Assembly (NCBI GenBank): GCA_004296885.1
Contig: SCVN01000004.1
Location: 1 to 64,000 of the forward strand
Source: Nitrospirota bacterium
Lineage (GTDB): Bacteria > Nitrospirota > Nitrospiria > Nitrospirales > Nitrospiraceae
Direction: 5' to 3'
Length of the DNA: 64,000 bases
Below the pieces are notes generated by a model that saw only the letters and a program-made list of their open reading frames with translations, made no database searches and was not told the DNA's origin. The position numbers and the translations under genes were made by a program. Positions within the stretch are counted from its first letter, which is position 1; every line of letters starts with the position of its first letter. Positions 440 to 64,000 of the stretch are shown piece after piece.

Positions 440-505
440 AAACCAAACTACGGTTTCTATCCGGCTCGCCTAAATCAAAGCTCGCCGGTTCGAGCAAGCT
501 TGGTG
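440..505 (-). repeat. tRNA-trailing hairpin repeat behind tRNA-Tyr
   Basis: On the minus strand it starts at the base after the tRNA-Tyr CCA with CACCAAGCTTGCTCGAA, nearly the same as the start of the unit behind tRNA-Arg at 22237. Hairpin 1 pairs 480-488 with 461-469 (CCGGC/GCCGG, then a tandem G-A/A-G mismatch, then two more pairs) around a 10-nt loop. The sequence ATAG follows, then hairpin 2 (AAACC/GGTTT, 452-456 with 440-444). The order matches the other family members: leader, GC stem, short second stem. Function unknown. Confidence 0.75.
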
Positions 506-590
506 TGGTGGGCAGGCAAGGATTCGAACCTTGGAAGCCGATGGCAACAGATTTACAGTCTGCCCCCTTTGTCCACTTGGGTACCTGCCC
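506..590 (-). tRNA. tRNA-Tyr(GTA)
   Basis: Class II tRNA with a long variable arm. Acceptor GGGCAGG/CCTGCCC, anticodon stem CAGAC/ATCTG region with loop reading GTA, T arm CAAGG/CCTTG, discriminator A and encoded CCA. It is the first gene of the tRNA-tuf transcription unit, downstream of the promoter at 738-766. Confidence 0.97.
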
Positions 591-22108: not shown

Positions 22109-22159
22109 GCGTCCTCCTAGCTGGACTTTCCACAGCCCATTCGATATCGTAGCTTCCGC

Positions 22160-22236
22160 GCCCCCGTAGCTCAGTTGGATAGAGCGACGGTTTCCTAAAC
22201 CGCAGGTCACCCGTTCAATTCGGGTCGGGGGCACCA
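22160..22236 (+). tRNA. tRNA-Arg(CCT)
   Basis: Acceptor GCCCCCG/CGGGGGC, D arm GCTC/GAGC, anticodon loop TTCCTAA in the stem GGTTT region (anticodon CCT), T arm ACCCG/CGGGT with loop TTCAATT, discriminator A, encoded CCA. It reads AGG codons. A hairpin-repeat array begins at the next base. Confidence 0.97.
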
Positions 22237-22563
22237 TACCAAGCTTGCTTGAACCGCCCGCTTCGATCACATGCGGGCGGATAGTTACTTTGCCTCCAGT
22301 AGGCTTCGATACCGCACTTCGTGTGAGCCGCCGGCTATTTATAGTCTTATTGCGATTATCGCCGGCGGAGAATACCTTTAGTGTTTCTTAGGGCTGAGCT
22401 TGATCCGATTGTATTACGCTTGAACGGCGCGATCTTTATCGCTTTATCGAATTTACTGCGCGCAGAGAGAAACCTTAACGGCCCCATGTTGTTTGAACGA
22501 AGCTTGCGTGTACCGATCACCTATCTATTGAGGCGAACGGAGAAATACCGCCAGTGTTCTTAG
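22237..22563 (+). repeat. Array of four tRNA-trailing hairpin repeats
   Basis: Starts with TACCAAGCTTGCTTGAA right after the tRNA CCA. Unit 1 (22237-22301): stem 22254-22261/22273-22280 (CCGCCCGC/GCGGGCGG), 11-nt loop, then ATAGTTACTTTGCCTCCAGTA. Unit 2 (22310-22391): mini-stem CACTTCGTG, stem 22328-22335/22361-22368 (CCGCCGGC/GCCGGCGG), 25-nt AT-rich loop, then AGAATACC and a second weak stem. Unit 3 (22415-22486): stem 22425-22431/22459-22465 with one mismatch. Unit 4 (22495-22563): a degraded stem (7 of 9 pairs), then AGAAATACC and TTCTTAG. Unit 2 is closely matched behind tRNA-Pro; unit 1 behind tRNA-Tyr and in the 57.8 kb array. The array fills the gap before the cytochrome gene; a 60-codon frame inside it is not coding. 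Confidence 0.8.
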
Positions 22564-22630
22564 TTAAGACTGGCCAAGCTGATTAGTGCATGGGAGCCGC
22601 CGGATAGCATTCCATGAGCCGTTTCCAAAA

Positions 22631-23068
22631 ATGAGAACAGCCCTCCATAAAGCCCTGCCCGCCCTCTTCTGTCTCACGTTTGGCTTTCCCGATATAGTGG
22701 CAAGCGCTTTCGCACAAGACCCGCCAGTCGCGATGGGCGAGGCAACCCGAGGCAGGGTCATTTTTAACGGCATCGGAGGCTGTTTCAATTGCCACGGGAA
22801 CGACGGAGTCATCACTCGCCTGCCCCGGCACTCTCCTAAACTCGCAGACGAACTGGCTCGACTCGCTCCACCGCCGGCGGACTTGCGCAATCCGTCCCGT
22901 CTTAAGTCGCAGACCGATGCTGATCGACTCCGCTCGATCAAATTCGGCCATCCGGGGACCGCCATGTTTCCCAAGAAATTTCTTTCGGAGAGGGAAGTTG
23001 CCGATCTGTTGGCTTATTTGGCCACACTTCGAGAAGAGGCAGGCGGCAACGACAAGGCCGTTCCCTAG
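22631..23068 (+). CDS. Exported class I cytochrome c
   Basis: A 145-residue protein starting at the ATG at 22631, which gives a good signal peptide ending near FAQDP. The single haem motif is CFNCHG; the likely distal ligand is the Met of GTAMFPKKF. The end is acidic and flexible. Electron carrier in the periplasm; partners not evident from context. There is no strong SD before this ATG, and a GTG at 22586 would add 15 residues without improving the signal peptide. It follows the tRNA-Arg repeat array. Confidence 0.88.
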   Translation: MRTALHKALPALFCLTFGFPDIVASAFAQDPPVAMGEATRGRVIFNGIGGCFNCHGNDGVITRLPRHSPKLADELARLAPPPADLRNPSRLKSQTDADRLRSIKFGHPGTAMFPKKFLSEREVADLLAYLATLREEAGGNDKAVP

Positions 23069-40601: not shown

Positions 40602-40677
40602 ACACTTGAGGTGTTTCTCCGGCGGCACCAATTACGATAAAACTCAAATTAGCCGCCGGCTCACACGAAGTGAGGTA
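40602..40677 (-). repeat. tRNA-trailing hairpin repeat behind tRNA-Pro
   Basis: On the minus strand it starts TACCTCACTTCGTGTGAG directly after the tRNA-Pro CCA. The main stem pairs 40652-40659 with 40619-40626 (CCGGCGGC/GCCGCCGG) around a 25-nt AT-rich loop, then AGAAACACC and a short ACAC/GTGT stem. It matches unit 2 of the tRNA-Arg array in leader, loop length and tail; the stem arms have swapped bases but still pair. Confidence 0.8.
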
Positions 40678-40754
40678 TGGTCGGGGCGACAGGATTTGAA
40701 CCTGCGACTCCCGCGTCCCGAACGCGGTGCGCTACCGGGCTGCGCTACGCCCCG
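40678..40754 (-). tRNA. tRNA-Pro(CGG)
   Basis: Acceptor CGGGGCG/CGCCCCG, D arm GCGC/GCGC, anticodon stem CCGCG/CGCGG with loop TTCGGGA (anticodon CGG), T loop TTCAAAT, discriminator A, encoded CCA. It stands between acyP and ald on the same strand. Confidence 0.97.
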
Positions 40755-42874: not shown

Positions 42875-43043
42875 CAGGATGCTCAAAATGGCCGCCTTCT
42901 CACCCGCCCACCCCGCGTGCGCCAAACGCACGCTGCTCCCGCGGCTCAGCCGCAGGGAAGGCGGCGACTGAGGCATACGGTTTTCGGCATGTCGCAGGGA
43001 GACGCCTGACCGAGAACGAAGTTGGGGGCCATTTCCAGCATCC
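42875..43043. repeat. MITE-like palindromic element, copy 2
   Basis: A 169-base element with the same ends as copy 1: CAGGATGCTCAAAATGGCCG at 42875 and the complement of GGATGCTGGAAATGGCC ending at 43043. The interior differs and is longer, with its own stem-forming GC stretches. It lies 72 bases after the ferredoxin gene and ends just before the GAGGAG of the next gene. Confidence 0.7.
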
Positions 43044-57726: not shown

Positions 57727-57800
57727 CTTAACGCATCTACCTCACTATTCCCACATTGGACCTTTAGGCGATTACGCAACTCCTTACGCGTCAACAAGAA

Positions 57801-57985
57801 TTTGATTACTGGAGGCAAAGTAACTATCCGCCGCGAGTTTATCGAGCGCGGCGGGTCAAGCGAAGAAGAGAACCCCAAGATTGCTGGTGGGGTTCTCCGC
57901 CGCGCAAATCAATAGCGCGTCGGTACACGCCAAGCGAAGAATTTGATTGCTGGAGGCAAACAATCTCTCCGCAGCGATTTGATCG
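57801..57985 (-). repeat. Orphan array of three tRNA-trailing-type hairpin repeats
   Basis: No tRNA adjoins. Unit A: stem 57847-57854/57828-57835 (CCGCCGCG/CGCGGCGG on minus), 11-nt loop, then ATAGTTAC and TTTGCCTCCAGTA, with a 26-base identity to 22276-22301. Unit B: stem 57915-57923/57897-57905 with one mismatch, followed by a perfect 9-bp second stem (GAGAACCCC/GGGGTTCTC, 57868-57876 with 57889-57897). Unit C: second stem GATTG/CAATC intact (57945-57949, 57961-57965), first stem arm without partner, so it is cut. Units are linked by CTTCGCTTG. It reads on the minus strand into the terminator. Confidence 0.8.
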
Positions 57986-58127
57986 AAGATCTTGACTTCA
58001 ACTCAGCGCAGACGGACCGCATCGGCTCCGCTCGCACCGTATCTGAACGACGACACATCCGAAGAAGACGGAACTGAACGAACTTACGAAGCGGAGCGGC
58101 AAGAAGGATCGGCCGGACACATGGCAT

Positions 58128-58304
58128 TCATTTTTGGCAGAACCAGAGCGCGTAGAAGCGGTGATTGCAGGAATGGCACTCGAAGGGATAGAGGCCCAGC
58201 CAGCTGAGGATTCGCTCGTCACAATGCCGATGCGCCCGCTCTCCCCAGCGAAACCGGCAGATGGGGCAGCGAGCCGAAACGAGTGTCGGCAGCCAACTGA
58301 ACAT
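58128..58304 (-). CDS. Small zinc-ribbon protein
   Basis: A 58-residue protein: two Cys pairs, CPIC and CHSC, separated by SWLGLYPFECHSC with an arginine/aromatic tail NHRFYALWF. Short proteins with this plan are widespread and of unknown role. ATG at 58304 with GAAGG 6 bases upstream. It lies upstream of the repeat array on the same strand and might share a transcript with it. Confidence 0.65.
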   Translation of the reverse strand: MFSWLPTLVSARCPICRFRWGERAHRHCDERILSWLGLYPFECHSCNHRFYALWFCQK

Positions 58305-58451
58305 GAACACCTTCAACGGTCCCTCTTCTCCGCCGATTCATTCACTGAGGCGCGCAGCGAGTTGCTCGCTGCTTCGGCTCGCGATCTTCCAAGGCCGGCC
58401 GACGCATCTTATTCGATCGAGAGGGGCCAAGCGGAAAACTGGTCTCTCAGC

Positions 58452-61400
58452 TCACACCACTGTTTCATGCGGGAGCTGAGCGTGCGCCTCTCCGCTTTCG
58501 GAAGAAACAATCTGACAGTCCAACGCCTTGTCGCTGGATTCACGACGGTCGTTGCTCTGCGTCTCAGGTCGGGGCTCAGGTGGTTCCGCTCTTTGGTCCT
58601 GCATCGGAGGCAGACGGACGATGAACGCCGCCCCTCGGCCGACCTCGCTCTCCACGGTCACCGTCCCGCTCAGCTCGCTCACAATCCGGCGCGCGATCGA
58701 CAGGCCGAGCCCTCGAGACTGGCCGGCCGGCTTCAGGGTGAAGAACGGCTCAAACAGGCGGGCCTGGTGTTCCGGCGCAACGCCGGGGCCATCGTCCTGG
58801 ATTCGTACTTCAATCCAGTTCGCCTGGTCGCCCTGCCCTCCGATCTCCCCCGCGCTCTGTTCTTCTGCTCCCGGCGCGGCGGCGCGGGAACGCGGCGATT
58901 CGGCGAGAGCCGTCGTCACGGTCAACATGCCCTTCCCATGCGCCGATGCCATCGCCTGCTGTGCGTTGGTGATCAGGCTCAACAGGACCTGAACCACATC
59001 GTTGGCGTCGGCCAAGACGGGCGGAAGATGCTCCTGAAGATGCGTCTGTATCTGAATCTGATGGATGGCCAGATCATTGGCGGCCAGGTCGAGGGTCCGC
59101 TGGACCAGCCCATTCACCTGGCAGGCCTGCCGCTGCCCTCCGGATGAACGGGAGACGGCCAGGGTCCGCTGCACGATCTCAGCCGCCCGCTGGGCCGCCT
59201 CCTGGATCGAGGACAACTCGTCCGTCAAGCCCTCGAAGCGCCCCTGCTTCAGCTCTTCTACCGCAAGTTGGGCGTAGCCGGCGATCATGAAGAGCGGGTT
59301 GTTCAACTCGTGCGCAACGCCGTCAAGCAGCGTGCCGAGAGACGCCATCTTCTCCGACTGGCGCAGCATCTGTTCGGTACGCCTCCGCTCCGTTTGATCC
59401 CGCATGACGAGCAGCCACCCGACGACCGCCTCACCCTTCCGGACGGCGGTGCTGGTCACTTCAAGCCACAAAGCCCGGCCGTCTTTGAGAAAGATCTCGA
59501 ATTCCATCAGCGGGGGCACCGGCCGACCGAGACCGATGGCCGCCAGGTTCGACCTGGCCAGCGGCTGGCAGGCGAAAGCCTCCATCAGGGAACTGCCGAT
59601 CAGTTTTTCCATGGGCTGCCCCATGATCAGTTCCGTCCGGCAATTGGACCACTGGATAATGTGCCGATCATTGAGAAACAGAATGGCGTCGGTCGCATGG
59701 TCAATCGCCAGCCGGAACCGTTCTTCGCTCTCTTCGGCCTGCTCGGCCATCCGCAGTCGGCCGAGGAACTGGCCGATCTTGATGCCCACGTCGGCCATCA
59801 TGTCCAACAGCTCGGCATCGAGCGGACGCACCTCGCGACTGAAGAATTCGATCACGCCCAAAACCTCGTCTCCGATCTTGATCGGAAAGGCGAACGCCGC
59901 ATGCAGGCCGGCCTTCGCGGCAATCGGTGCCCGTGGGAAGTTGGGGTCCTTCACCACATCGGGCAGCCAGGCCGGTGTGCCGCTGGCCCAAACGCGGCCG
60001 GGCAAACCGACCCCTGACTGGAACTGGCTGGCGCAGGTCGCAGCGACAAAGTCCTGGGCCGGAACCGATTTGGCCAGCCAAACCGTCTCACACCGGAGTA
60101 TCGGTTGATCCGGCTCCACGAGCCAGACGGCACCCATGTCCCAACCCGTTGTCTCGCAGACGGCCCTCAGAATCGGTGGAGCCGCATCCGCCAGGGTCTT
60201 GGATTGAACCAGCGCGCTGCTCACGGCCAATTGCGAGGCCTGTCGTTTCTCCGCCCGGCGGCGCGGCCGGTCGTCGCGCAAGGCGAGCACGATGCCGACC
60301 AACGCGCCTTGCCCGTCTCTGATCGGAGCCGCGCTCCCCTCGATGGAGAGTTCCTTGCCATCGCGTGTGATCAGCAGCAGGCGCTTGCCAAGCGAGACGA
60401 CCCCGCCCTCTCGGATGACGTTGGCAACCGGGTTCTCGATCGCTCGTTTGGTCTCTTCGTTGACAATCTGAACGACCTTGGAGAGCGCGACCCCAATGGC
60501 GTCTTTCTGTTCCCAGCCGGTGAGGTGCTCCGCGAGCGGATTCATAAAGGTGATGGAACCGTTCCTGGCGGCAGCCACCACGCCGTCGCCGACACTGGTC
60601 AAGGTCGCCGTCAATTGCTCGGCCTGTTGCGTTGCCTGCACCGAGATTCGTTGGAGCCGTGCGCCGGTCCAAAGAAGCAGGGTCACCATCGGCAGCCACA
60701 CGGCACTCCCGACGAGCGCCAGTTTCCACAGGAACTGCCGAATCGGCGTCAAGATGTCATCGTGGTTTATCCTCACGAGGACGCCCCAATTCAGCAAGCC
60801 TTTGGTCTTCGCGTAGCCAGTGATCACCGGGATACCGCGCCGCATATGGGTTTCCTCGACGTAACCGGACGGGCCCGATCCCACCAGCAGGGCCGACGGT
60901 AGCGCCCACTCCCTGAGGTTGACCCGTAGTTCTTCCCGTAACATCGAATCTGCGATCACTGTACCGTCGCCGGCCAGGAACTGATACTCGATGACGGCCG
61001 CTGTACCGTGTTGGGCCTGGAGGGCCATAACCGTGCCCGCAAACACGGCTTCCAGAACCGGCAAACTGACTTGCGTCATCACCGTGCCGAGCCATTCCCC
61101 GCCTTGTCCTCGGATCGGCGCGGCGAAGGTCACGGCCAGGGCTCTGGCGAGCCCGTCGGTGACGGCCACATCCTCAACCACGATCCCGCCCCTTTTGCGA
61201 ACCAACGCGAACCATGAGGCTTGGCTCACATCCAACCCCACACTGCCGGGATCGGTCGCAGCGAGAATCCGACCGTTCGGATCGGTCACCCCCAACCAGC
61301 GATAGACCGGATAGGCGTCTTGGACAGATTTCAGATACGGAGTCATCGCGGCCGGGTTCCCTGCGTGAAGGACCGGCGATACCGTCAGCATATGAATGTC

Positions 61401-61673
61401 GCCGTACCGTTCAGCAAGAAGCAGGTCTAGTTTGCCGGCAATCTCGACGGCGGCCAAGGCCATGTTCTCTCCCGCGCTCGCGACCAGCCGCTGTTCGATG
61501 AACCGCAGTGCAATCGCACCCACCGCACAAGCAAGGAGGGTGACCCCAGCCGTCAGGGCCAGCAGCCGCCAAGACATCCGGCGGCCGGACTGCGCGGCTC
61601 GGTCACGGTGCTTCCAGAAAGGCATCATCACCCCTGTGAGCAGTGGCACGCTCTTCATGTCTTTGCACGCCAT
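58452..61673 (-). CDS. Large multi-sensor histidine kinase
   Basis: A 1073-residue kinase. Membrane helix at about 35-55; an extracytoplasmic double-CACHE domain (about 60-310: DPNGRILAATDPGSVGLDVS); second helix about 316-340; PAS about 355-470; GAF about 485-640; PAS about 655-775; H box LLDGVAHELNNPLFMIAGYA; N box LLSLITNAQQAMASAHG; G boxes QDDGPGVAPEHQARLF and SRGLGLSIARRI. The N and G boxes are intact, so it should be active. Three sensor types in one protein allow several inputs. AGGA before the ATG. It follows the double-receiver gene by 68 bases. Confidence 0.93.
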   Translation of the reverse strand: MACKDMKSVPLLTGVMMPFWKHRDRAAQSGRRMSWRLLALTAGVTLLACAVGAIALRFIEQRLVASAGENMALAAVEIAGKLDLLLAERYGDIHMLTVSPVLHAGNPAAMTPYLKSVQDAYPVYRWLGVTDPNGRILAATDPGSVGLDVSQASWFALVRKRGGIVVEDVAVTDGLARALAVTFAAPIRGQGGEWLGTVMTQVSLPVLEAVFAGTVMALQAQHGTAAVIEYQFLAGDGTVIADSMLREELRVNLREWALPSALLVGSGPSGYVEETHMRRGIPVITGYAKTKGLLNWGVLVRINHDDILTPIRQFLWKLALVGSAVWLPMVTLLLWTGARLQRISVQATQQAEQLTATLTSVGDGVVAAARNGSITFMNPLAEHLTGWEQKDAIGVALSKVVQIVNEETKRAIENPVANVIREGGVVSLGKRLLLITRDGKELSIEGSAAPIRDGQGALVGIVLALRDDRPRRRAEKRQASQLAVSSALVQSKTLADAAPPILRAVCETTGWDMGAVWLVEPDQPILRCETVWLAKSVPAQDFVAATCASQFQSGVGLPGRVWASGTPAWLPDVVKDPNFPRAPIAAKAGLHAAFAFPIKIGDEVLGVIEFFSREVRPLDAELLDMMADVGIKIGQFLGRLRMAEQAEESEERFRLAIDHATDAILFLNDRHIIQWSNCRTELIMGQPMEKLIGSSLMEAFACQPLARSNLAAIGLGRPVPPLMEFEIFLKDGRALWLEVTSTAVRKGEAVVGWLLVMRDQTERRRTEQMLRQSEKMASLGTLLDGVAHELNNPLFMIAGYAQLAVEELKQGRFEGLTDELSSIQEAAQRAAEIVQRTLAVSRSSGGQRQACQVNGLVQRTLDLAANDLAIHQIQIQTHLQEHLPPVLADANDVVQVLLSLITNAQQAMASAHGKGMLTVTTALAESPRSRAAAPGAEEQSAGEIGGQGDQANWIEVRIQDDGPGVAPEHQARLFEPFFTLKPAGQSRGLGLSIARRIVSELSGTVTVESEVGRGAAFIVRLPPMQDQRAEPPEPRPETQSNDRRESSDKALDCQIVSSESGEAHAQLPHETVV

Positions 61674-61741
61674 GTCATGTTCCTATCGGAGGCGGCCTGT
61701 TCGTCTTTCTGCATAGGGAAAGCCTACGCTATCATCGACCG

Positions 61742-62572
61742 TCATGCTCGTTGTGGGTTCGCTCCGCTGACCTGTGGCTCTGAGTTGGCGACAAGCAGCC
61801 CCACTTGCACGACTAATTCCAGGCGATCCAGATTCACCGGCTTCCCAATGACGTCCACCGATCCGAGGTCAAGCGTCTGCTGCAACAGCTTCTCATCCTG
61901 GCTGGCCGTCAGAGCCACCGCCCCGCCCACATAGTGCCTAGCCCGCAGCTCGCGCAACACATCGAGACCGTTCATGCCGGGCATATACATGTCCAGGATG
62001 ACCAGGTCGGGCTGCTGTTGCGCCACCATCGCGAGGGCCTCCGCACCGTTTTGCGCCACGCGGACCCGATAGCCCCGCAAGGTGAGAAATTTCATCAGCA
62101 GGTTACGGATCATCGCTTCATCATCCACCACCAGAATGGTCGCCCCCTCCCGGCTCTCCACCGATGCCACTCGATTAGGAATCCCGGCAGGCAGGGCCAT
62201 GGCGGCAGGACTCGACCTCTGAAGTGATCGCTCCATGGCTCCAAGCACCACGTCGAATGACAGCCCTTTCTTCAGAAAGTCGCTCACCCCCAACTCCCTG
62301 GCCTGGTTTTCCATCTTCACGTTTCCTCCAGCCGTCAACACCATGACGGCAGCCATCGGGCTCATCGCTCGGATCTGCTTCAGCACGTCGATCCCGTCCA
62401 TCCCGGGCATGCGGAGGTCCAGCAGCGTGATGCTGGGTTGGTGCTGCTGAAACAGCGTCAGGGCTTCATGGCCATCGGTGGCCGTCAGCACCTCGTGCCC
62501 GTGGGAACTGAGCACTGCGCGCAGCAGATCGCAAATCATCTGCTCATCGTCCACCACCAATATCTTCCCCAT
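61742..62572 (-). CDS. Double-receiver response regulator
   Basis: A 276-residue protein made of two receivers. First (1-120): VVDDE, Asp in LLDLRMPGMDG, Lys in FLKKGLS. Second (about 140-260): VVDDE, Asp in VILDMYMPGMNG, Lys in VIGKPVN. The Ala/Pro linker is short and no output domain exists, so it may act as a phosphate relay or scaffold between the kinases on each side. GGAGGTG precedes the ATG. Confidence 0.93.
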   Translation of the reverse strand: MGKILVVDDEQMICDLLRAVLSSHGHEVLTATDGHEALTLFQQHQPSITLLDLRMPGMDGIDVLKQIRAMSPMAAVMVLTAGGNVKMENQARELGVSDFLKKGLSFDVVLGAMERSLQRSSPAAMALPAGIPNRVASVESREGATILVVDDEAMIRNLLMKFLTLRGYRVRVAQNGAEALAMVAQQQPDLVILDMYMPGMNGLDVLRELRARHYVGGAVALTASQDEKLLQQTLDLGSVDVIGKPVNLDRLELVVQVGLLVANSEPQVSGANPQRA

Positions 62573-62644
62573 CCTGCACCTCCAAATTAGTCCTGCGCTG
62601 CGATCCGTGATCGGCCGCGACCCTTTGGGCCAATTACCGGCTGT

Positions 62645-62722
62645 TCATCGGTTTCCCTCCATCACCGGCAGCCGCACGGTGAAGGTGGCATCCGGCTGCC
62701 CACTGACGCTCCAGATGCCGTG
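62645..62722 (-). pseudogene. Possible remnant of a histidine kinase C terminus
   Basis: In the 269-base gap between two kinase-system genes, a minus frame ends GHGIWSVSGQPDATFTVRLP then VMEGNR and a stop. This resembles the last strand of a HATPase domain (HGGxIWVxSxPGxGATFTVRLP), with no N or G boxes before it. It may be a decayed kinase tail. Short and only suggestive. Confidence 0.35.
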
Positions 62723-62841
62723 TCCACTCGTTCGAGCAGGACTCCAGGGTTCGCCCGGTCTGCTGAACTGATGGAAGCTTCCTGACAAAGCCGCATCAAC
62801 AAAACAGCGATCCCCGACGTTCGCTCGCGAAACGACACGCA

Positions 62842-64000
62842 TCACGGTCCGGCTCCCTGTTTCGATGAAGCCAACGCCTCGCGCACCTTCGCTGTCAGTG
62901 CATGGGGCGTAAAGGGCTTCTGCAGAAAGACGCCCCCCTGGGCCCACACCTGTTGATGGAAAGTACTGCTATCTGTATAACCTGACATGAACAGTACCTT
63001 CATTTCGGGACGCGTCGGCATTAGACGTTTGCTCAACTGGCCTCCGTTCATGTCCGGCATGATCACATCGGTGAGCAAGAGGTGGATCGACCCGACGTAC
63101 TCGCGGCTCACCTGTAGTGCCTCATCGCCGTGGCATGCCTCCAAGACCGTATAGCCGTTTGAGCAGAGGATGTCTCCGACGAGCGAGCGCACCAAATCCT
63201 CGTCCTCGACCAGCAGGATGGTTTCATTGCCCCCCTGAATCTTGTGAGGCTGGTTTCCGGAATACACGTCATCAGCCACGCTATCTTCACGCGGCAAGAA
63301 GATGGTGAGCATCGTGCCTCGACCGGGTTGGCTGTGGATCTCGATATGCCCTCCGCTCTGATCGATGATCCCATGGACGATGGAGAGGCCAAACCCAGTG
63401 CCCTTGCCCCTTGGCTTGGTGGTGAAGAAGGGCTCAAAGATGCGAGACTGCGTGGCTTCGTCCATCCCAACCCCGTTGTCGCTGACCACCAGCAGCACGT
63501 ACGGACCGGGATGGAGGTGGGAGTGTCGATGCCCGCCAGCCTCGCCCAGTACGAGGTTGGTCGTTTCAATAGTGAGTCGCCCTCCCTTCGGCATGGCATC
63601 ACGGGCATTGACCGCCAGGTTCAGAATGACTTGCTCGATTTGCCCGATGTCGGCCTTCACACAGCCGAGATCCGTTTCCAGCCGGGTCACGAGTTCGATC
63701 GGCCCGAGCAAGCGCCGCAGGATCGCCTCGATCCCGGCAATGACGACGTTGAGATCCACTCTTCTCGGCTGGATGACCTGCTTGCGGCTGAAGGCCAGGA
63801 GCTGGTGCGTCAACGCGGCAGCCCGCTCGCTGGCCTGACGGATTTCCTGGATGCTCTCGAACTGGGGATCGCCCTGCGGAAGCGTGAACAACAACATCTC
63901 GCTATTGCCGGTGATGACCGTCAGCAGGTTGTTGAAGTCATGGGCGATGCCGCCGGCCAGTTGCCCCATCGCCTCCATTTTCTGCGCGTGGCGCAACTGC
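62842..64000 (-). CDS. Hybrid histidine kinase, 5' end outside the window
   Basis: At least 386 residues; the frame is open to the window edge and begins before the H box, so the N terminus is missing. H box GGIAHDFNNLLTVITGNSE (HWE/HDFN type), N box QVILNLAVNARDAMPKGG, G boxes SDNGVGMDEATQSRIF and KGTGFGLSIVHG. A C-terminal receiver follows with Asp in LLLTDVIMPDMNG and Lys in VFLQKPF. It is likely a hybrid kinase that passes phosphate to its own receiver, then perhaps to the double-receiver protein. Confidence 0.93.
   Translation of the reverse strand, partial: QLRHAQKMEAMGQLAGGIAHDFNNLLTVITGNSEMLLFTLPQGDPQFESIQEIRQASERAAALTHQLLAFSRKQVIQPRRVDLNVVIAGIEAILRRLLGPIELVTRLETDLGCVKADIGQIEQVILNLAVNARDAMPKGGRLTIETTNLVLGEAGGHRHSHLHPGPYVLLVVSDNGVGMDEATQSRIFEPFFTTKPRGKGTGFGLSIVHGIIDQSGGHIEIHSQPGRGTMLTIFLPREDSVADDVYSGNQPHKIQGGNETILLVEDEDLVRSLVGDILCSNGYTVLEACHGDEALQVSREYVGSIHLLLTDVIMPDMNGGQLSKRLMPTRPEMKVLFMSGYTDSSTFHQQVWAQGGVFLQKPFTPHALTAKVREALASSKQGAGP

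Follow-up and report, generated by a model that had tools for sequence, protein, structure and literature searches.

A hairpin repeat family that begins at tRNA CCA ends in Nitrospiraceae, probably a small non-autonomous mobile DNA repeat

In the window, i.e. the whole 64-kb stretch of DNA analysed here, three tRNA genes are followed by a hairpin of similar plan that starts exactly at the first base after the CCA end, hereafter CCA+1. This raises the question of whether these hairpins are a part of the tRNA transcript, or DNA elements for which the tRNA end is a place of insertion.

ARAGORN identifies five tRNAs in the window. The units 3' of tRNA-Tyr, tRNA-Arg and tRNA-Pro all have CCA+1 as their first base and lie on the strand of the tRNA. 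They share one plan: YACC, a mini-stem, CCG, a GC-rich stem, CGGA and a weak 3' hairpin. The block at 22237-22563 consists of four such units in tandem, of which units 1 and 2 fold well while units 3 and 4 are decayed. The features are listed below; R1 is a covariance model built from 36 short-loop units.

440..505, minus strand: divergent unit at the tRNA-Tyr CCA+1, between tRNA-Tyr and tRNA-Gly (R1 23.8 bits, E 0.015; fold z -3.5)
506..590, minus strand: tRNA-Tyr(GTA) (ARAGORN, Rfam)
22160..22236, plus strand: tRNA-Arg(CCT) with an encoded CCA end (ARAGORN, Rfam)
22237..22309, plus strand: unit 1, short-loop type A, beginning at CCA+1; stem CCGCCCGC/GCGGGCGG, loop TTCGATCACAT (R1 match 22237-22302, 92.6 bits, E 4.5e-20; fold -27.0 kcal/mol, z -2.6)
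22310..22395, plus strand: unit 2, long-loop type B; stem CCGCCGGC/GCCGGCGG (R1 match 22310-22394, 34.8 bits, E 2.4e-5; fold z -2.3)
22402..22480, plus strand: unit 3, type B with a decayed stem (HMM 34 bits; fold z +1.4)
22481..22563, plus strand: unit 4, type B, decayed (HMM 15 bits; fold z -0.8)
40602..40677, minus strand: lone type B unit at the tRNA-Pro CCA+1; stem CCGGCGGC/GCCGCCGG (R1 33.4 bits, E 5.7e-5; fold z -3.7)
40678..40754, minus strand: tRNA-Pro(CGG) (ARAGORN, Rfam)
57806..57886, minus strand: type A unit in an array displaced from tRNA-Ala(CGC) (R1 54.6 bits, E 2.2e-10)
57887..57946 (limits approximate), minus strand: short-loop unit with an internal mismatch, CCGACGCG...CGCGGCGG (sequence reading; homologous unit in the congener G001)
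57947..57995, minus strand: partial unit at the displaced-array junction (R1 23.6 bits, E 0.018)

The ARAGORN positions, the sequence reading and the R1 matches agree with the first-pass annotation that the same kind of unit stands at CCA+1 of tRNA-Tyr, tRNA-Arg and tRNA-Pro. Behind tRNA-Thr at 211 there is a possible unit remnant, TGCCAAGCTGCTTG, and by sequence reading no unit is present behind tRNA-Gly at 357.

The units behind these three tRNAs belong to one family of hairpin repeats of about 65-80 letters. Two alignments were made, one of the 36 type A units, which have a short loop (TTCGATCANAT), and one of 26 type B units, whose loop is long. In type A, 98.3% of the main-stem cells are paired, and over the whole structure 91.4% are paired, compared with 28-39% when the partner is slid. 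Two-sided changes occur in 62 cells versus 17 in shuffles, and in type B they are found in five of the eight main-stem pairs. The covariation that had been claimed for the main stem is thus real. The mini-stem is also supported (93% paired), while of all helices the 3' hairpin is conserved least, with 75% pairing and weak support; outer pairing of the units is present in some predicted folds only. The stems of both types are flanked by A/G before CCG and by A(T/G)AG or AGAA after CGG. CCTCC or CCTCA is frequent in the loop of the 3' hairpin, and CCNCMAG is found in 23 of 30 tRNA-linked type A copies. In the alignment no tRNA acceptor or T-stem sequence is seen in the units except for a 7-nt likeness, the unit loop TTCGATC, which by sequence reading matches the tRNA T-loop consensus.

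The family is apparently undescribed. A search of 22150-22650 against Rfam 15, to E 5, returned only the tRNA and one sub-threshold match antisense to the tRNA itself, and the whole window at gathering score returned tRNAs only. Nor did open-access full-text literature give an account of tRNA-linked hairpin repeats in Nitrospira, although one may have been published elsewhere. Within these sources, the earlier statement that no described family has this plan holds.

R1 finds the window copies again and yields 63 matches (E up to 0.1) in the 3.26 Mb of the own genome. Eleven of these begin at CCA+1 or, in the case of tRNA-Leu(TAG), one base later; the expectation under random placement is far below 0.01. 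The first-pass annotation had staked its reading on further copies and on covariation in the stems, and both were found. By eye, and with decayed copies included, a type A, type B or short-loop unit stands at CCA+1 of about 15 of the 43 tRNAs, and the trailers of another four have a related hairpin, type D; this reading covered the regions near tRNAs and repeats. Over half of the tRNAs are without a unit, and the majority of copies lie away from tRNAs.

Type D hairpins (CCCCGAGCTTGCTTGGCGGGAGC...GATCCGC) have a mini-stem as in the units and also begin at CCA+1 (L017 1576, L023 1800 and L065 1200, both on the minus strand, L160 and L186). Most tRNA-Ser genes have yet another hairpin repeat, CTTGGCGCGATA...TGGCGCGCC, from near CCA+1 (e.g. 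L063, L198 and L178), which is also found in other trailers.

The family appears to be restricted taxonomically. When 84,980 species genomes were searched with a CCA-plus-unit pattern, 17 stretches matched, and those with unit structure are from Nitrospirota assemblies. Two pattern matches outside Nitrospirota (L206, L210) have neither unit structure nor tRNA and are taken as chance. Within the phylum 37 of 246 genomes have a match, 36 of them in the same family, Nitrospiraceae, and one in another family. This last genome (G072, 77% complete) contains a strong unit match (L258), which could represent transfer, wider spread or contamination. No unit match was found on plasmids. Viral carriage was also considered; the two pattern matches on viral contigs belong to another conserved stretch and look fortuitous.

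Comparison of the trailers of 43, 42 and 43 tRNAs in three congeners reveals both occupied and empty sites. A unit follows tRNA-Ala(CGC) in two of the three congeners, and tRNA-Leu(CAG) and tRNA-Glu(CTC) in one each, the latter being of type D. At tRNA-Arg(CCT), tRNA-Pro(CGG), tRNA-Lys(TTT), tRNA-Met and tRNA-Ser(GCT) the type of unit varies by species while the CCA+1 register is constant. In a second genus a different set of tRNAs is occupied, e.g. tRNA-Cys and tRNA-Arg(TCG). The same insertion site is used in two genera, so some insertions are old. Empty orthologues are also found for sites at Shine-Dalgarno complements (L084 in G003, L281 in G001, and L278 in G001 and G002). Sequence similarity between occupied and empty orthologues often breaks off at the junction itself, which hides the exact extent of the insert; no clean target-site duplication was seen at orthologous sites, and the 3' limit of the units is variable. 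As to whether the newest copy of an array stands next to the tRNA, HMM scores, which include the leader, favour the first unit in 14 of 16 arrays, while by stem pairing alone the result is 4 versus 4.

Some trailers carry larger rearrangements. The array at 57.8 kb has no adjacent tRNA and is the displaced trailer of tRNA-Ala(CGC), which in this genome lies about 14 kb away; in congener G001 the homologous array touches tRNA-Ala(CGC). The intervening segment contains sensor-kinase and response-regulator genes (window 57800-64000, contig C4 to 71881), its junction lies inside the unit loop TTCGATCAAAT, and no integrase was seen in the inspected ends. At tRNA-Pro(TGG) of L012 (G000) and L092 (G003), an insertion of about 150 bp repeats the tRNA 3' end (CTCTCGCCCCGACCA), and in G003 a unit follows the repeated tRNA end. 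In L215 (7283) and L218 (7269) the loop of a type A unit contains an additional small inserted hairpin, CTCGACCCAGAGGCTCTCGACGGGTC.

The units are found in several host contexts. Among 230 loci from several genomes, 44 are at a tRNA CCA, 6 at tRNA 3' fragments, 21 at a Shine-Dalgarno complement, 48 in a palindrome loop, 54 in runs and 57 elsewhere; these loci were fetched by similarity, so the proportions are no census. Since the context table was phase-adjusted towards CA, the junction statistic was drawn from the unadjusted set, limited to copies with a CC leader: position -1 is A in 119 of 139 copies and position -2 is C in 117 of 139. The same CA/YACC junction is common to the tRNA ends, the CCTCCA sites, the palindrome loop and the other hairpin repeat. 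At the Shine-Dalgarno complements the start codon of an opposite-strand gene is 10-17 nt from the unit, and CCTCCA directly precedes it in 16 of 21 cases; two of the 21 are the tRNA-Ser case described next, where the opposite-strand "gene" is only an open frame. At this tRNA-Ser 5' end, in three species, the unit is directed away from the tRNA and the complement of the acceptor strand reads CCCCTCCA, which speaks for recognition of a DNA sequence and not of membership of a tRNA transcript. A possible further acceptor, the 16S rRNA 3'-end pattern GGATCACCTCCTT, gave no match in this assembly. Units are also nested: in two species the loop of a type D hairpin hosts one, and a dispersed palindromic element has a short native loop in some copies and a unit in its place in others. 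This palindromic element, about 110-250 bp long (AGGATGNTCAAAAAGGCC ... GGCCTTTTTCAGCATCCT), has 33 matching pieces in the own genome, e.g. G000:C19:79789-79935, C7:264042-264123 (L129) and, in part, window 43008-43030.

Not all tRNAs are used equally. With an HMM, in three genomes, a unit is found behind 32 of 73 tRNAs with discriminator A and behind 6 of 55 other tRNAs, and a stricter structural count points in the same direction (p 0.016); as the genomes are relatives, the counts are not independent of one another. The motif (C)CA is far too common to account for the tRNA preference, and CACCA is common in a genome as well, so the preference needs another feature of the tRNA. Candidates are the hairpin-forming DNA of the tRNA gene, tolerance, or an RNA step.

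Selection on an RNA hairpin would be expected to tolerate G-U pairs on the transcribed strand for longer than A-C mismatches. The 1,536 main-stem cells contain 14 G-U and 21 A-C (p 0.31, with small counts), i.e. G-U is no commoner than A-C and there is no RNA-strand signature. The lack of one-strand selection together with the multiple contexts favours a hairpin that is recognised as DNA and decays neutrally after insertion, and decayed units do persist in the genome. The covariation among copies would then reflect the active source elements. As covariation in a mobile hairpin mimics that of RNA, units that occupy tRNA trailers and the borders of ribosome-binding sites can be mistaken for conserved RNA genes.

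We suggest that the units are probably a non-autonomous, hairpin-based mobile DNA repeat of Nitrospiraceae, inserted in one orientation 3' of a (C)CA motif. In its favour are the exact register, the junction common to all contexts, the variety of host sites, filled and empty orthologous positions, the nesting and the covariation. Of the earlier proposal of a mobile element targeting tRNA 3' ends, the mobile element is retained, while tRNA ends become only one of several targets. A selected RNA module would belong to the tRNA trailer, where the unit could fold in the precursor and fix CCA 3' processing, or stabilise or terminate the transcript, the other copies being spill-over. The exact CCA+1 start on the strand of the tRNA, a register that stays constant while the unit is swapped, the strong covariation with conserved loops and the T-loop-like TTCGATC would all fit. 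However, over half of the tRNAs are unoccupied, congeners differ in which tRNAs have a unit, the bulk of the copies lies beyond tRNA transcripts, decayed units persist, G-U is not in excess over A-C, and a terminator scan of 22150-22700 found no U-tract or intrinsic terminator. The processing or stability module that had been proposed earlier is therefore unlikely. The same distribution, with unit-less tRNAs, congener differences and no strand bias, speaks against a family of small RNAs made from tRNA precursors, acting as sponges or regulators with the CCTCC loop as an anti-Shine-Dalgarno. Such RNAs would be comparable in kind to the tRNA-trailer sponges of E. coli, and both the frequent CCTCC/CCTCA loop and the presumed co-transcription of a unit with its tRNA are in their favour, but the loop sits in the least conserved helix, and we consider this early suggestion very improbable.

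The units could also have spread mainly by recombination, with tRNA trailers undergoing gene conversion and units serving as crossover points where larger segments are inserted, and with no dedicated transposition. At tRNA-Pro(CGG) the flank is common to the congeners while the stem sequences differ, and only in this genome is tRNA-Ala(CGC) separated by 14 kb from its array; both would suit such exchange. It leaves unexplained, however, those copies that have no common flank, namely at Shine-Dalgarno complements, inside palindrome loops and within type D hairpins, and we find it quite unlikely as the main route. Somewhat less doubtful, though still speculative, is an undescribed minimal mobile hairpin whose machinery recognises mature-tRNA-like CCA ends, possibly via RNA, by reverse transcription switching onto tRNA 3' ends, or via extruded single strands of tRNA genes; tRNA genes would then be landing pads for 70-bp elements.

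For the DNA repeat inserted 3' of (C)CA, which we prefer, an enzyme would recognise the hairpin as DNA and place each copy, always in the same orientation, directly behind a short motif with (C)CA as its end. The main acceptors would be the encoded CCA ends of tRNAs and CCTCCA, the Shine-Dalgarno complement, with the loop of other hairpin repeats as a third. Tolerance may come from the mature tRNA and the ribosome-binding site being left intact at tRNA ends and at positions just upstream of the Shine-Dalgarno. CCTCMAG is usual in the 3' part of the unit itself, so each insertion would bring a new acceptor-like site, and this repetition of the motif could drive the piling up of units and A+B pairs into runs. 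No mobilising gene was found in a Y1 profile search of eight genomes. The unit-rich genomes G000, G001 and G007 contain no Y1 transposase (PF01797), and a RAYT/Y1 mover is therefore rejected for these three, save for one acting from elsewhere or since lost. The Y1 genes of G003, G008, G015 and G022 have no adjacent unit apart from one weak partial match (E 0.03). Identification of the mover would explain the recognition of CCA ends and might uncover a new way in which small repeats transpose.

Several known systems resemble the units in part. Like REP/BIME sequences with RAYT, they are short extragenic palindromes with similar stem length and alternative complementary residues, present in dozens of copies, pairs and runs (PMC3733652); the 63 R1 matches, the runs and the A+B pairs place them among high-copy extragenic palindromes. 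In a 2013 survey, where REP families are defined by GTAG/CGTC tags, Nitrospira is not mentioned (PMC3733652). The units differ in that the stem base lacks such a tag, that three unit-rich genomes are devoid of Y1 transposase, and that the start is fixed after CCA and at Shine-Dalgarno complements.

As in MITEs and the pneumococcal BOX and RUP elements, the units are non-autonomous, dispersed and nested, but no terminal inverted repeats matched to an IS and no clear target-site duplication were seen. IS200/IS605-type elements have subterminal hairpins and a fixed orientation, and insert 3' of a motif resembling their own 3' end with no evident target-site duplication. With these and their non-autonomous derivatives the units share the hairpins and the fixed orientation 3' of a short motif, here the CA junction. 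Because of this orientation, the motif 5' of the insertion and the unit's own 3' CCTCMAG resembling the target, an IS200/IS605-type single-strand process would fit best functionally. We do not claim membership: the units have no linked Y1 enzyme, are much smaller and prefer tRNA ends.

The rtT repeats behind E. coli tyrT are likewise repeats in the trailer of a tRNA operon. They include tRNA 3'-end sequence and are confined to one operon, while the units are dozens of dispersed hairpins with a plan of their own and without tRNA acceptor or T-stem sequence. Finally, large integrative elements classically insert at tRNA 3' ends. The units are similarly addressed to the tRNA 3' end and leave the tRNA intact; in contrast, they are gene-less and only 65-80 bp long, and no duplicated tRNA end flanks them. 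Elements of this size thus share the address of large integrative elements with the precision of a single base, across a family of nitrifiers and apparently free of RAYT. On the whole the units resemble a very small mobile element, addressed with unusual precision, more than a component of the tRNA machinery.
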